This document shows, piece after piece, positions 1 through 5,292 of a stretch of DNA of 64,000 bases. The stretch is from NCBI RefSeq assembly GCF_015689195.1, contig NZ_CP065044.1, positions 434,001 to 498,000 on the forward strand, read 5' to 3'. This stretch comes from Pectobacterium aroidearum (lineage in GTDB: Bacteria > Pseudomonadota > Gammaproteobacteria > Enterobacterales > Enterobacteriaceae). The notes beneath the pieces are model-generated. The model did no database searches, was not told the DNA's origin, and worked only from the letters and a program-made list of their open reading frames with translations. Within the stretch, counting starts at the first letter, position 1. Each line of letters starts with the position of its first letter. Position numbers and translations under genes: made by a program.

Positions 1-180
1 ACGAACCGATTGATTCATTTTCGAACCGTGCCGCAGCCAGGTGATTTACTGATTTACGCGAATACGGCGGGATACCAGATGGACCTGCTGGAGAACGCGT
101 TTCATCGACATCCGCTGCCTGCGCGCTTGTGTGCGTTCAAAGGTAAGAAAGGTGAGCTGATTTTTTCCAGTGATAACTGA
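1..180 (+). CDS. PLP-dependent decarboxylase, C-terminal end (partial)
   Basis: Only the last 59 residues and the TGA stop lie in the window. The reading frame is open from base 1 and contains the segment GDLLIYANTAGYQMD, which resembles the C-terminal beta-barrel end of fold-III PLP decarboxylases (DapDC/ornithine decarboxylase type, such as SbnH or rhizobial Y4yA). In that family this region helps to form the dimer active site. The stop is 13 bases before the ATG of the SbnA-like gene, so the two are probably co-transcribed. In staphyloferrin B synthesis an enzyme of this fold decarboxylates a diaminopropionate conjugate. The exact substrate here is unknown, and the family call rests on a short fragment. 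Confidence 0.6.
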   Translation, partial: TNRLIHFRTVPQPGDLLIYANTAGYQMDLLENAFHRHPLPARLCAFKGKKGELIFSSDN

Positions 181-193
181 ATGGAGCAGAACC

Positions 194-1210
194 ATGATCC
201 TGAATAAAGTAACTGATTTGATTGGTAATACCCCCGTTATACAAATTCCGGTTCCCTATGGGGATACGCGTTTGTTTTTAAAAGTGGAGAAGAACAATCC
301 CGGCGGCAGCATGAAGGATCGAATGGCGCGCAACATGATTGTCGCCGGGCTGAAGTCAGGCAAAATTCGCCCCGGCGGCACCATCGTCGAGTCGTCGTCG
401 GGTAATACCGGTATCGGGCTGGCGCTGGCGTCGATCGAATATGGCCTGCGCTTTATCGCCGTGGTCGATCATCATGCGGCACAGGACAAAATTGCCATCA
501 TGCGCGCGCTCGGCGCGGAAATTCGCTACGTCTCCGGCGACTACGGTGAAGATGAAGTGGCGGTGGTGGAACGTCAGCGCATGGCGGCACAGCTGGCACA
601 GGAAATTCCCGGCGCGGTGTTTATGAATCAATCGGATAACGCGGCGAATGCGGGCGGCTACGCTGATTTTGTGCGTGAGCTGTTCAGCCAGATTGGCAAG
701 ATCGACGCGTTTGTCGGCTGCGTGGGCACTGGCGGATCGATGACCGGTATTTCTCACGGCCTGAAAGTCCATAACCCGGATATTACGACCATTGCCGTTG
801 AGCCTGTGGGTTCTATTGTCTTCGGCCACCCCGGCAAACCTTACTACCAGTCTGGCACCGGTACGCCAGCGGGAGATACCGTGGGGCTGGTGCTGGATTA
901 TAGCTGCATCGACTGTGGCGAGCAGGTTTCGGATGCGCAGGCGTTTGAAACCGCACGCTATATCGCGCGGCACTATGGTTTGCTGGTCGGCGGCTCGACG
1001 GGCGGGGTGATCTATAAAGCACTGGAGTTGATCTATCAGGATCGCATCGGCGGCAACGTTGTACTGGCGATTGCCGACGGTGGTGAAAAATACCTGCATA
1101 CGGTGTTTAACGAAGAGTGGCTGGCGGCGCGTAATCTGACAGATAGCGGCGTATGGCACGATCTGGATCGCTGGCTGGGCAACGCGATTTCTCTGGAGCA
1201 GGCAAGCTAA
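194..1210 (+). CDS. SbnA-like cysteine-synthase-fold enzyme (probable O-phosphoserine-dependent Dap precursor synthase)
   Basis: This 338-residue protein belongs to PLP fold type II (cysteine synthase/cystathionine beta-synthase). Visible landmarks are the PLP-lysine motif PGGSMKDR near residue 40, the substrate loop SSSGNTG near 70, and the phosphate-binding GTGGSMTG near 180. The family member SbnA joins O-phospho-L-serine to L-glutamate to give ACEGA, a precursor of 2,3-diaminopropionate (Dap). Ordinary cysteine synthases use O-acetylserine. The neighbours (opine dehydrogenase, exporter, SbnI-like kinase) favour the SbnA role over cysteine synthesis. I chose the ATG at 194, which follows GGAG at 183-186; a GTG at 170 would add 8 residues and overlap the upstream gene. 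Substrate specificity is inferred. Confidence 0.75.
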   Translation: MILNKVTDLIGNTPVIQIPVPYGDTRLFLKVEKNNPGGSMKDRMARNMIVAGLKSGKIRPGGTIVESSSGNTGIGLALASIEYGLRFIAVVDHHAAQDKIAIMRALGAEIRYVSGDYGEDEVAVVERQRMAAQLAQEIPGAVFMNQSDNAANAGGYADFVRELFSQIGKIDAFVGCVGTGGSMTGISHGLKVHNPDITTIAVEPVGSIVFGHPGKPYYQSGTGTPAGDTVGLVLDYSCIDCGEQVSDAQAFETARYIARHYGLLVGGSTGGVIYKALELIYQDRIGGNVVLAIADGGEKYLHTVFNEEWLAARNLTDSGVWHDLDRWLGNAISLEQAS

Positions 1211-1220
1211 GGAGTTAAGG

Positions 1221-2378
1221 ATGACCGAAGCGCTAAGCGGGCAGCCGCTTAACGTGGTGATTTGCGGGGCCGGTAAGACCGGCCATCTCGCCACGGTACT
1301 GTTTACACAACTACCGGATGTCAGGGTGACGCTGCTGGGTAGCCATCCGCGCCTGCCGGAAGCCTATCAGCAGCACGGTAAACGGCTACATGCCCTGTTG
1401 CCGGATGGCGAGACGCTGACGGCCACGCCGGACTGCGTGACCTGCGATCCGGCGGAAGCCTGCCGCGATGCGGACGTCGTTATCATCACCGTTCCCGCTA
1501 ACTTCCGCGCCGATCTTCTGGCGCGGATTGTTCCTCATCTGCCCGCCAACAAACCGGTTTATGTTGGCGCCATTCCCGGTTTTTGCGGTTTTGACTGGCT
1601 GGCTGAACGCGAGCTGGCCGCTCGTCCGAACGCGGTGATTTGGGGCATGAAGGACGTTGCGCACATTGCGTTTGATTTGCTGCCGGGTCAGTCGATCAAA
1701 ATGGGCGGCGAAAAGGCCACGCTGTATGTCGCCACGCATCGGCGTGAAACGGCTGCGAGCCAGCAGGCGCTGATGGCACTGTTGCAACGACTCTATTCTG
1801 CACCAGTGGTGCTGTTACCGGATTATTTGGAGATCACGCTGACGCCGGGTAACCCGATTATGCACAGTGCGGTGATTTATGGCCTGATCGGTCCCTATGG
1901 ACAGTGGCACGCCCGACCGCTCTCACAGCCGCTGTGCTGGTGGAATGATTGCCCGGAACTCGGTGCCTATTATCTGGAACGTATGGACGAGGAGAACCAA
2001 CGGCTGTGTGCAGCGCTGGAGGCGCGGCTTGGTGTGCAGTTGGATTCGGTGCTGCCGCTCAAGCAGGAGATTATCGATGCCTATGGTGAGCAGATTACCG
2101 ATGCGCACACGATGCTCTCTGTGCTGCGCACCAATCAGGCTTACCACGGCATCGGTCTGCCGCTGCGAAAAGATGGCGCGGGCGGGTATGTGTTTGATAC
2201 GCAGCATCGGGTGTTTCAGGAGGATATCGCTTACGGCCTGAGCCTGCTGGTGACCATCGCGGAGAATCTGGCTGTTAGCGTGCCGTACATTGAGGAAGTC
2301 TACCGGTGGTGCAGCGATTATATGGGCACTTCCACGCAGGATCGTCCCGACTATTTCCCGCGACAGTGGTTGAAATGA
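1221..2378 (+). CDS. opine (octopine/nopaline-type) dehydrogenase family protein
   Basis: This 385-residue NAD(P)-dependent enzyme has an N-terminal Rossmann motif, CGAGKTGHLA, around residues 15-24. Its C-terminal octopine-dehydrogenase domain includes NPIMHSAVIYG at 211-221, where H215 aligns with the catalytic histidine region of opine dehydrogenases. Family members reductively condense the amine of an amino acid with a 2-oxo acid, as in metallophore enzymes of the staphylopine/pseudopaline type, or run in reverse to cleave secondary amines. An AAGGAG-type ribosome site precedes the ATG, and the gene starts 10 bases after the SbnA-like gene, so coupling is likely. In this setting it could replace SbnB, which oxidatively cleaves ACEGA to Dap and 2-oxoglutarate, or make a true opine metallophore. 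Family certain, reaction inferred. Confidence 0.75.
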   Translation: MTEALSGQPLNVVICGAGKTGHLATVLFTQLPDVRVTLLGSHPRLPEAYQQHGKRLHALLPDGETLTATPDCVTCDPAEACRDADVVIITVPANFRADLLARIVPHLPANKPVYVGAIPGFCGFDWLAERELAARPNAVIWGMKDVAHIAFDLLPGQSIKMGGEKATLYVATHRRETAASQQALMALLQRLYSAPVVLLPDYLEITLTPGNPIMHSAVIYGLIGPYGQWHARPLSQPLCWWNDCPELGAYYLERMDEENQRLCAALEARLGVQLDSVLPLKQEIIDAYGEQITDAHTMLSVLRTNQAYHGIGLPLRKDGAGGYVFDTQHRVFQEDIAYGLSLLVTIAENLAVSVPYIEEVYRWCSDYMGTSTQDRPDYFPRQWLK

Positions 2379-2415
2379 GACGGGGTGACGCCGTGAAAGC
2401 AGAAGGAATTGACGC

Positions 2416-3666
2416 ATGCGCTTGAGTGGGCAGGTGGCGTTTATCATCCACTTTATGTTTGTCGTACAACTGGTGGCGATGGGGGCGATGGAGATGAGCG
2501 GGCCGTTTTGGCCGCTGCATCTGGAAAGTATGTCATCCGGTGCGGAACTGAGTATCGCGGGGATTGCCGTGTACATCGGGCCGATGCTGGGCATTATGCT
2601 GACCAGCGCCTTCTGGGGACGAATGGGCGATCGGCTGGGTAATAAAGCCATGATGATCCGCGCGCTGTTCGGGCTAGCGTTAACCCAGCTTGGGCTGGCG
2701 TGGGCCAATGACATCTGGACGATCGTCGCGCTGCGTTTTATTCAGGGCGCCTGTGCGGGGTATATCGCGCCCGCGCAGGCCTACGGCGTCGCGGTCGTCA
2801 GTCCGTTACAGCGTACGCGGCTGTTCGCCTGGCTTCAGGTGTCTACCAACGTCGGATCGCTGCTGGGGGCGATTGTCGGCGGGCTGATCCTCGACTACCT
2901 GAACTTCTTCTGGATCAACCTGAGCGCCGCTATCCTGTGTGCGCTGTGCGGCATTACTGTGGCGCTGTTCCTGCCGCATGTCGCCCCCGATGTCCCTGCG
3001 GTTCCGCCTGCGGATGCACAGGAGAAAAGTACACCGCGCAGTCGGCTTTGGGCGCTGTCGCCGATTTCCGGCCTGCTGCTGATTTCCGGCCTGTTGCTGG
3101 CCAGCCGCATGATTCCGCAAACGCCGTTTTCCCTGTATATGGATGGCATTTTTCAGGTGGATAAATGGATTATCGGCCTGTGCTATGGCTTGCAAGCGAC
3201 CGGTGTGATTGTCTCTGCATCGCTGTGGGCGCGCTATTTTGAAAACCTCTCGCTGTCCCAGACGCTGAGCCGCTTGTGTGTGGTCATGCTGGCCTGCGCC
3301 ATCATCACATTGACGGCCGCCACGATCCTGAATATCGCGATTTTCATCCCACTTTATTTCCTGTGGGGCGTCCTGCTGGGGGCGACGACGCCAGTTCTGA
3401 TGGCGCTGATTTCTCGTGCGGCTGGTGCCGGACAGCAGGGTTACATACTCGGTGTGGCGCAAAGCGTCAGCCAGTTTGCCTCGATTCTGGGCATTGCTTT
3501 GGGCGGATTGGTGCTCTACTCCCCCGGACTACGTTCGCTGTTCTTCTGCGTTGGCGCCGCGTATCTGGTGACCTTCCTGGTCTCGCTGATGCTGCTACGA
3601 CACCTGCGGAAACAGGCGGAAAAACATGACTCTCTCTCGACGAAGGGAAATATCGAAAATGTGTAA
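2416..3666 (+). CDS. MFS transporter, probable metallophore exporter
   Basis: This 416-residue integral membrane protein has about 12 hydrophobic segments. The MFS motif A, GRMGDRLGNK, lies in the loop after the second segment, at about residues 69-78. A polar central linker near residues 190-210 divides the two six-helix halves. The drug:H+ antiporter-like architecture and its place between a biosynthetic enzyme and a periplasmic binding protein suggest inner-membrane export of the operon's product, as SbnD does for staphyloferrin B. An AGAAGGAA ribosome site precedes the ATG by about 8 bases. The 3' end overlaps the next coding region by 8 bases. The exported substrate is not determined by sequence. 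Confidence 0.75.
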   Translation: MRLSGQVAFIIHFMFVVQLVAMGAMEMSGPFWPLHLESMSSGAELSIAGIAVYIGPMLGIMLTSAFWGRMGDRLGNKAMMIRALFGLALTQLGLAWANDIWTIVALRFIQGACAGYIAPAQAYGVAVVSPLQRTRLFAWLQVSTNVGSLLGAIVGGLILDYLNFFWINLSAAILCALCGITVALFLPHVAPDVPAVPPADAQEKSTPRSRLWALSPISGLLLISGLLLASRMIPQTPFSLYMDGIFQVDKWIIGLCYGLQATGVIVSASLWARYFENLSLSQTLSRLCVVMLACAIITLTAATILNIAIFIPLYFLWGVLLGATTPVLMALISRAAGAGQQGYILGVAQSVSQFASILGIALGGLVLYSPGLRSLFFCVGAAYLVTFLVSLMLLRHLRKQAEKHDSLSTKGNIENV

Positions 3667-4819
3667 TCGTTGGACGCGGCAATATTGCCGTCGGTTATTG
3701 CTGAGTGCGCTGTTGATGGTCGGTCTGTCGCCGCTGGTGGCGCAGGCTGAGCAAACTGCGCAAACCTCAACGCTTATTAAGGATGTGCTGGGGCGTGAGG
3801 TGAGGGTCAACACGCCGGTGCAGCGCGTCATGTTGGGGGAAGGACGTCAGCTTTATCTGGTCGCGATGCTCGACAGGGAAGATCCGGCGAAAAGGATCGT
3901 TGCCTGGCGGCGCGATCTGATTCAGTCCGATCCGGCAACGTGGCACCAGTACCGCGATCGTTTTCCTCAACTGGCGAAAATTCCGACGTTCGACGGCACG
4001 GAGAAAGGGACGTTTGACGTGGAACAGGCGGTATCGCTGAAGCCGGACGTCATCATTATGAATATTGAGGCGCAGCGGGCGATTGTCGATGCGGGCTATG
4101 ACCGGATACTGGATAGCGTCGGCATTCCGATTGTGTATGTCGATTTTCGCTATCACCCGCTGGAAAACACCGCGCCGACCCTGCGTCTGTTCGGCAAGCT
4201 GTTTCATCAGGAAGCGCGCGCCGAGGCGTTTCTCGCGTTCCGTGAGGCGCAGCTAAAACGTGTTTCCGACGTGCTGGCGGCGAAAAAGCCGCGTTCACCG
4301 CGCGTTTTCATTGAGCGGCTGGGGGGCTACACCGATGAATGCTGCCTGACCTTCGGTCCGGATAACTTCGGTAAGTTCGTGCAACTGGCTGGTGGCGATA
4401 ACGTTGCGGCAAAAAATGCGCCGAGCACTTTTATGCAGATGCATCCTGAACAGGTGATTGTGGAAAACCCGGAAGTGGTGGTGATCACCAGCGGCAACTT
4501 TGAAGCCTTCGTACCCGGCGGGCGCTGGATTGGATTGGGGCCGGGGCAGGATGTGGTTGAAGGACGCAAGCGGCTTGAATGGTTTTTGGGACGGCCTGCG
4601 TATACCAACACCCTCGCGAAGCAGAAACGCGCGTTCCATGCCATCTGGCATCAGTTTTATAACGGGCCCTATGATTTCATCGCGATTCAGCAATTGGCTG
4701 AGTGGTTTCACCCCGATCTATTCCGCGATCTCAACGCGGATGACACTTTCCGCCAGCTTCATCAGCAATTTTTACCGGTGGACTACCAGCCGGGCTATTT
4801 CGTCAGTCTTGCGCCGTAA
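3659..4819 (+). CDS. iron/cobalamin-type (TroA-like) periplasmic ABC substrate-binding protein
   Basis: This 386-residue protein has an N-terminal signal peptide: basic residues, a hydrophobic core RRLLLSALLMVGLSPLV, and probable cleavage after AQA near residue 30. The mature part follows the class III binding-protein pattern used for Fe(III)-siderophores, haem or vitamin B12. That pattern includes a strand-turn such as VNTPVQRVM and the LKPDVIIM segment at the start of the second half. It would capture a metal chelate in the periplasm. No permease or ATPase of a matching transporter is in the window. I preferred the ATG at 3659, inside the MFS stop region and after AAGGGA; an upstream ATG at 3626 would add 11 charged residues before the signal sequence. 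Confidence 0.7.
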   Translation: MCNRWTRQYCRRLLLSALLMVGLSPLVAQAEQTAQTSTLIKDVLGREVRVNTPVQRVMLGEGRQLYLVAMLDREDPAKRIVAWRRDLIQSDPATWHQYRDRFPQLAKIPTFDGTEKGTFDVEQAVSLKPDVIIMNIEAQRAIVDAGYDRILDSVGIPIVYVDFRYHPLENTAPTLRLFGKLFHQEARAEAFLAFREAQLKRVSDVLAAKKPRSPRVFIERLGGYTDECCLTFGPDNFGKFVQLAGGDNVAAKNAPSTFMQMHPEQVIVENPEVVVITSGNFEAFVPGGRWIGLGPGQDVVEGRKRLEWFLGRPAYTNTLAKQKRAFHAIWHQFYNGPYDFIAIQQLAEWFHPDLFRDLNADDTFRQLHQQFLPVDYQPGYFVSLAP

Positions 4820-4827
4820 ATGAGAGG

Positions 4828-4852
4828 CAGCTCCGACGTTACGTCGGAGCTG
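4828..4852 (+). other. perfect intercistronic hairpin in the metallophore-like operon
   Basis: The sequence has two perfectly complementary 12-base arms, CAGCTCCGACGT and ACGTCGGAGCTG, around a single T. It begins 8 bases after the stop of the binding-protein gene and ends 30 bases before the ATG of the SbnI-like gene. No T-run follows, so it does not look like an intrinsic terminator. It could stabilise the upstream mRNA, tune expression of the last gene, or be an operator. Confidence 0.6.
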
Positions 4853-4881
4853 TGCGTAACCGTTACGTCAGGAGGTGGATA

Positions 4882-5292
4882 ATGTTTGAAGGTATGACCT
4901 ACCAGATCGCTCTTACGCCCGTGCAGTTCCTGCTTCCCTCTGAAAATGTTGATATGTCGAACGTGGAATGTCTGATGGAGGACATTTGCCGCTGTGGCTG
5001 CTGGACGACACCAGTACCCATAGAGAAAAAAACCGGAATTATCATGGATGGCAATCATCGGCTACGTGCGGCTACCGAGCTGGGATTGAAGCACATCCCC
5101 TGCGCGTTGCTTGATTATGAGGATCCTCGCGTGTCCGTTTATCACTGGAAGACCGGGCAACCTTTTTGCAAAAATCTGATTATGCAGACCATTGTGACGG
5201 AAAAGGGCCTGTTTCCCTACAAGACCACACGTCATCTTTTCCAGCCTGCGCTGCCGTCGGTGAGCGTGGTGCTGGATGAACTGATGCGCTAA
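4882..5292 (+). CDS. ParB-fold protein, probable SbnI/SerK-like free L-serine kinase
   Basis: This 136-residue protein carries the ParB/sulfiredoxin-type motif IIMDGNHRLRAATELG, with DGNHR at about 56-60, and a following LLDYEDPRVSVYHW segment. Both match the SbnI and archaeal SerK group rather than chromosome-partition ParB. In that group the protein phosphorylates free L-serine to O-phospho-L-serine, the substrate of SbnA. Its position as last gene of an operon that also encodes an SbnA-like enzyme supports the same job here. The ATG at 4882 has a strong AGGAGGTGG ribosome site; a GTG at 4852 would fall in the hairpin. There are several cysteines near residues 30-40 (CLMEDICRCGC), which could reflect a metal or redox feature. 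Function inferred, not proven. Confidence 0.65.
   Translation: MFEGMTYQIALTPVQFLLPSENVDMSNVECLMEDICRCGCWTTPVPIEKKTGIIMDGNHRLRAATELGLKHIPCALLDYEDPRVSVYHWKTGQPFCKNLIMQTIVTEKGLFPYKTTRHLFQPALPSVSVVLDELMR

Follow-up and report, generated by a model that had tools for sequence, protein, structure and literature searches.

A proteobactin-type siderophore operon in Pectobacterium aroidearum and its proposed link to rhizobactin

Introduction

The 64,000-nucleotide stretch of the Pectobacterium aroidearum genome analysed here (the window, G000:C1:434001-498000) opens in the middle of an operon that carries an opine dehydrogenase gene among genes of siderophore type. The closest described relative is the proteobactin operon pbtABCDEFGHI of Proteus mirabilis (Himpsl 2010, via PMC11026637), which has the same genes in the same order together with a citrate-lyase-like gene on the opposite strand; in P. 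mirabilis, two ATP-binding cassette (ABC) transporter genes stand in front. The gene set is thus already known. The pbt operon is reported to be iron-repressed, with sites of the Fur consensus, and chrome azurol S (CAS) activity is lost in an nrp/pbt double mutant. A hydroxy-carboxylate siderophore is predicted as its product, with PbtI read as making oxaloacetate (PMC11026637).

The operon core also matches y4yB-y4yA-y4xP-y4xO-y4xN-y4xM of the Sinorhizobium fredii plasmid pNGR234a, a relationship within a wider family that the initial annotation had correctly pointed out. There, genes for a kinase-like protein, a decarboxylase, an SbnA-like enzyme, a dehydrogenase, a nonribosomal peptide synthetase-independent siderophore (NIS) synthetase and a major facilitator superfamily (MFS) transporter form a single run, but a CitE-like gene is missing and the receptor gene is not adjacent. 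The role of y4yB-y4xM has been called enigmatic, and a copy in Erwinia carotovora was noted (PMC3973906). On pNGR234a the cluster (L008:11192-18237) is part of a type III secretion locus, with nopX on one side and nopL on the other.

In staphyloferrin B synthesis, SbnA couples O-phosphoserine with glutamate, and the product then undergoes oxidative cleavage by SbnB to L-2,3-diaminopropionate (L-Dap) and 2-oxoglutarate; the synthetases are SbnC, SbnE and SbnF (PMC7139808). A serine kinase, an SbnA-like enzyme, a pyridoxal phosphate (PLP) decarboxylase and NIS ligation are common to both systems. The Pectobacterium operon, however, has one NIS gene where staphyloferrin B has three synthetases, and so does not fit that product; it also lacks SbnB, contains an opine dehydrogenase, and has a lyase that best matches RipC (SbnG was not compared). 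Opine metallophores of the staphylopine type end in an opine dehydrogenase step. The present operon likewise includes an opine dehydrogenase, but one of the Octopine_DH family (PF02317), and none of the nine operon proteins scanned with NCBIfam and Pfam models resembles nicotianamine synthase.

Rhizobactin was reported in the 1980s. Kuegler and co-workers described its production (C15H27O8N3) by Pseudomonas sp. FEN, which makes more of a new compound, rhizobactin B (C16H29O8N3). Rhizobactin consists of ethylenediamine, alanine, lysine and malic acid, and in rhizobactin B citramalic acid replaces malic acid, as determined by nuclear magnetic resonance; the first known producer was strain DM4, a Sinorhizobium meliloti (Rhizobium meliloti) (PMC7676072). 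This Pseudomonas has the same cluster as Pectobacterium, whereas the genes published for its siderophore are rhizobactin-1021-like.

Results and discussion

Link between the operon and rhizobactin

We consider it likely, with a probability of roughly 0.8, that the Pectobacterium operon is of the pbt siderophore type and that its product is rhizobactin, rhizobactin B or both. The FEN locus (L075) contains ParB/SerK-like, CitE-like, decarboxylase, SbnA-like, dehydrogenase, NIS, MFS, PLP-enzyme, receptor and binding-protein genes. Eight of the nine Pectobacterium proteins are 50–74% identical to their FEN counterparts, and the receptors are 46% identical. A search of the FEN genome for IucA/IucC proteins returned one gene, inside the cluster, and exactly one NIS gene was present in each of the 18 cluster-bearing genomes searched (the P. 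aroidearum genome, FEN, Pseudomonas batumici and 15 hand-picked from the other loci). A single NIS synthetase fits a product with a single carboxylate–amine amide, as in rhizobactin. The dehydrogenase of the cluster also occurs on plasmids of S. meliloti, to which the first producer, DM4, belongs, and one S. meliloti cluster was read whole.

The formulas also agree. Lysine plus serine, minus H2O and CO2, plus pyruvate by reductive amination, plus malate minus H2O, gives C15H27N3O8; with citramalate the sum is C16H29N3O8. The computed [M+H]+ values are 378.1871 and 392.2027, and those reported for FEN rhizobactin and rhizobactin B are 378.1866 and 392.2020 (PMC7676072). Every bond of rhizobactin, and both formulas, can be assigned candidate enzymes, namely the SbnA-like enzyme with the decarboxylase, the dehydrogenase and the NIS synthetase.

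The gene set (pbt operon, y4yB-y4xM) and rhizobactin are each already known. The link between them was not met in the literature searched, mostly by listing, where no paper mentioned rhizobactin together with opine dehydrogenase or with proteobactin; Himpsl 2010 and others may discuss it. For the rhizobactin clusters mentioned in PMC12815270, the citation given is to rhizobactin 1021.

Proposed pathway

Each catalytic step proposed here is inferred, with lysine, pyruvate and malate or citramalate as the suggested substrates. The SerK/SbnI-like protein, acting as a minimal free-serine kinase, would phosphorylate serine to O-phosphoserine. The SbnA-like enzyme would exchange the phosphate for the alpha-amine of lysine, yielding N2-(2-amino-2-carboxyethyl)lysine, which corresponds to N-(1-amino-1-carboxy-2-ethyl)glutamate (ACEGA) with lysine in place of glutamate, and the Y4yA-family decarboxylase would convert this compound to N2-(2-aminoethyl)lysine. 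The opine dehydrogenase would condense the new amine with pyruvate and reduce the product to an N-(1-carboxyethyl) end, after which the single NIS synthetase would couple malate or citramalate to lysine N6. Export would fall to the MFS protein, and the TonB receptor and binding protein would return the iron complex. SbnB would not be needed, since the product would retain the amino acid that the SbnA-like enzyme attaches, with no cleavage taking place. The initial annotation had offered, as one of two options, a forward opine reaction on a Dap-type amine to build a new metallophore; the forward direction fits best, but the predicted amine is aminoethyl-lysine instead of free Dap, and the predicted product belongs to the known rhizobactin family.

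The dehydrogenase scores 105.6 bits against PF02317 (gathering score 30). Its residues H215, R330 and D335 align with H212, R324 and D329 of octopine dehydrogenase, which we take to act in catalysis, and are kept in 85/85 sequences (84 loci and the window). The solved relatives of this enzyme, octopine dehydrogenase and CENDH, use pyruvate, which fits the alanine unit of rhizobactin. The NIS synthetase and the MFS protein score below the cut-offs of their best NCBIfam models (FslA, 266 bits against 1000; FslB, 179.7 against 600). The 136-residue kinase-like protein aligns with residues 25–107 of SerK and, weakly, with 206–241, the segment between being absent, and reaches 41.2 bits against the SerK model, below the equivalog cut-off of 380. 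Its E21, D56, H59, R60 and KTTRH motif align with SerK residues that are presumably catalytic, and are kept in 77–80 of 80 sequences. SerK converts free serine to O-phosphoserine, using ADP (PMC5120207).

The divergent lyase would act in the synthetic direction, combining acetyl-CoA with pyruvate (or glyoxylate) to give citramalate (or malate), a supply role like that of SbnG, which provides citrate for staphyloferrin B. Among the NCBIfam models listed, the best for the divergent lyase is RipC (153.7 bits, compared with 124.5 for citE), both scores lying under the cut-off (375 for RipC, so that RipC equivalog status is not reached), and its best PDB match is 8khl, an acyl-CoA lyase beta chain; the FEN lyase likewise best matches citramalyl-CoA lyase RipC (160.8 bits against 375). 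RipC-type enzymes split (S)-citramalyl-CoA into acetyl-CoA and pyruvate (PMC12290011), and this reaction reversed and followed by hydrolysis would give citramalate. FEN, which has the lyase gene, makes mainly the citramalate form; the malate form was originally described from the rhizobial strain DM4, whose own genome was not seen. From these two chemotypes, the RipC-like lyase may supply citramalate. The CitE-like gene occurs in 33 of the 85 loci compared (34 including one broken copy; sampling is described below), comprising 21/21 Pseudomonas loci, 12/13 Enterobacterales loci (one of them broken) and Bosea; it was not seen in another 50 of the 85, rhizobial clusters included, within flanks of at most 10 kb. 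A quick tree of 84 rows, from which L016 and L041 were left out, shows three changes in its presence or absence. NIS positions 191 (Y/F), 198 (R/K), 484 and 601 track the lyase when those two loci are left out, but with so few label changes this association is confounded by descent.

We give even odds to a broader proposal, in which a single pathway would account for rhizobactin, which has had no matching genes, for proteobactin, for which the available text gives no structure, and for the rhizobial y4yB-y4xM cluster, which has had no role; the RipC-like lyase would be a dedicated citramalate synthase that decides between rhizobactin B and rhizobactin, and the SerK-like protein of about 136 residues, without its middle segment, would be an unusually small free-serine kinase. 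If true, this would provide an account of how rhizobactin is made, predict the structure of proteobactin and give a role to the rhizobial cluster. It would also define a logic that can be searched for in genomes: lysine, a serine-derived ethylene bridge, opine reduction and one NIS ligation.

Evidence against rhizobactin and alternative explanations

Several observations weigh against assigning rhizobactin to this operon. The sole pointer to lysine in place of glutamate as the putative substrate is FEN chemistry, and rhizobactin in Pectobacterium is predicted from genes, the organism's own siderophore not being known to us. The FEN authors credit their compound to rhbAB homologues, rhbAB being genes of rhizobactin 1021 (PMC7676072), and the FEN assembly is a draft. 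Single pbt mutants of P. mirabilis show no chelation defect, which appears only in the nrp/pbt double mutant (PMC11026637). The SbnA-like enzyme scores 237.9 bits against TIGR03945, below the SbnA equivalog cut-off of 349.95. A plain kinase function is called into question by the description of SbnI also as a regulator (PMC7139808) and by a study in which a SerK-like protein bound CTP. The kinase-like gene is absent within the fetched flanks of 6/85 loci, all betaproteobacterial, where O-phosphoserine may come from another source. A Fur box upstream, suggested as a check by the initial annotation, was not established: in Pectobacterium there was no match to the consensus at three mismatches, and the best site in the intergenic gap (12/19) is not above chance, 567 of 1000 shuffles that preserved only single-base composition being as good. 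A better match (14/19) lies inside the Pectobacterium NIS gene, and the best matches in the same gap are 16 of 19 in Serratia, 15 in Providencia and 14 in Proteus (no shuffle control).

The other option of the initial annotation was that the dehydrogenase runs backwards in the role of SbnB, releasing Dap and 2-oxoglutarate from ACEGA for a staphyloferrin-B-like product. SbnA-like and SbnI/SerK-like proteins do stand beside an NAD(P)-type dehydrogenase, and the lyase belongs to the HpcH/HpaI family, which we take to be that of SbnG as well (the two were not compared directly). The absence of SbnB, claimed for the window, extends to the genome, where no SbnB was found: the sole PF02423 gene, 2.26 Mb away, scores 89.6 against the SbnB cut-off of 326.9 and was rejected as BhcD-like within a hydroxyaspartate-type operon. 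That operon (L097, G000:C1:2691704-2692564 and neighbours) encodes a hydroxyaspartate ammonia-lyase, a BhcD-like reductase and a BhcC-like aldolase. In FEN, one of three PF02423 matches was examined and is tyramine oxidase subunit B-like (SbnB model 152.1 against 326.9); P. batumici has two such matches. Replacement of SbnB by the dehydrogenase was nevertheless rejected, because 18/18 genomes have one NIS gene and not three and because FEN, with the same cluster, makes rhizobactins, which need the forward opine step; we regard this route as very improbable.

A product built by the same logic from another amino, keto or hydroxy acid, rhizobactin-like and with 'proteobactin' as one such relative, is a closer contender and still unlikely. 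In the quick tree the enterobacterial rows fall to one side of a starred branch, four of the five enzymes compared are only 50–61% identical to those of FEN, and FEN itself makes two compounds. On the other hand, the conserved residues and the gene set are common to the whole tree, and the SbnA-like enzyme is 74% identical to that of FEN. That enzyme could also be a normal sulfur-metabolism cysteine synthase whose gene was drawn into the operon, in which case the operon would make a simpler acid–amine chelator. A title cited in PMC3973906 (Lorio 2006) reports its relative Y4xP to be a cysteine synthase, and this counts against the rhizobactin assignment too. However, the gene accompanies the decarboxylase and dehydrogenase in 84/85 loci, SbnA is the best NCBIfam model of its product, and a serine-kinase-like gene is present in 79/85 loci; we give the cysteine synthase reading hardly any weight. 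Production of rhizobactin and/or rhizobactin B by the operon is the assignment that we retain.

Organization of the locus

The operon starts about 5.5 kb upstream of the window, at the NIS synthetase gene (Table 1). All six features that led the initial annotation to propose a metallophore-type operon are present as tight, co-oriented open frames on the plus strand with domain matches, and the NIS synthetase and receptor genes that it suggested looking for upstream were both found there.

Table 1. Features of the Pectobacterium siderophore locus. L003 is the fetched flank of the window; window position equals L003 position minus 10000.
Feature	Position	Strand	Match or note
CitE/RipC-like (HpcH/HpaI family) lyase, divergent	L003:3415-4296	-	PF03328, E 1e-34
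IucA/IucC NIS synthetase	L003:4547-6448	+	PF04183, E 3.5e-56; also PF06276
TonB receptor	L003:6531-8735	+	TIGR01783, over its cut-off
Y4yA-family PLP decarboxylase	L003:8777-10180 (G000:C1:432777-434180); 3' end at window 1..180	+	PF02784, E 1.5e-24
SbnA-like PLP enzyme	window 194..1210	+	PF00291; best NCBIfam SbnA TIGR03945
Opine dehydrogenase, octopine dehydrogenase family	window 1221..2378	+	PF02317 Octopine_DH, E 3e-30
MFS exporter	window 2416..3666	+	best NCBIfam rhizoferrin exporter FslB
Periplasmic iron-siderophore binding protein	window 3626..4819 (open frame; probable start ATG 3659)	+	PF01497, E 2.4e-11
Inverted repeat between binding-protein and kinase-like genes	window 4828..4852		hairpin
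ParB-fold/SerK-SbnI-like protein, 136 residues	window 4882..5292	+	SerK model, E 1e-10; no Pfam match

The cluster is flanked by greB and ompR, both named from their sequences. Among 16 loci checked for these flanks, it lies between greB and ompR in 7/7 full-length Pectobacteriaceae loci (six Pectobacterium, one Samsonia), six loci from other families lack both genes, and the remaining three were not long enough to tell. The nearest named row in the tree is Pectobacterium sp. PL152, with 98% identity over 1667 columns from four proteins. The PL152 locus (L018) has split NIS and receptor frames and a prematurely ending kinase-like frame, owing either to sequencing error or to decay. The binding-protein gene has a second similar place in its own genome (L002, G000:C1:1451012-1451180; 69% over 169 bases).

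Distribution and conservation of the cluster

Loci were picked by similarity of the dehydrogenase, taking the best 80 of 94 matches on named contigs and five of 46 plasmid records (pNGR234a, S. meliloti USDA1021, P. mirabilis H63, Serratia marcescens pE28_003 and Agrobacterium vitis F2/5), 85 in total. A neighbour was counted if it aligned over at least 70% of the reference length, and because no neighbour was used as a query, its recurrence is not built into the selection. The decarboxylase recurs in 85 of these loci, the SbnA-like enzyme, NIS synthetase and MFS protein in 84 each, the ParB/SerK-like protein in 79, the TonB receptor in 78 and the binding protein in 70, and co-occurrence of the operon genes exceeds chance. 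At L041, the NIS and MFS genes are missing where the contig ends, and at L016 the SbnA-like gene and the dehydrogenase are broken. A class-V PLP enzyme (SufS/EgtE/PvdN-like), which the Pectobacterium operon lacks, is present in 22/85 loci, or 24 including partial copies (for example L011:12787-13971 and L075:13852-15516).

Within the genus Pectobacterium (25 genomes), the dehydrogenase frame is full-length in 16 and absent from seven; of the other two genomes, G007 carries it as two pieces, with a TGA, and G017 retains only a 23-residue remnant. In a class-wide search at E 1e-60, one of 369 genomes drawn was positive, the P. aroidearum genome itself, and the system looks rare within the class. 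In the Arsenophonus endosymbiont of Aphis craccivora (L016) the cluster is retained with several frames broken, and in Arsenophonus triatominarum (L015) the core frames are whole and the CitE-like gene is absent.

The strong hairpin between the binding-protein and kinase-like genes varies in sequence, with most of its eight stem pairs kept in eight Pectobacteriaceae. Across the whole gap, three of 13 predicted pairs are changed on both sides, and the hairpin is perhaps an element of mRNA processing or stability.

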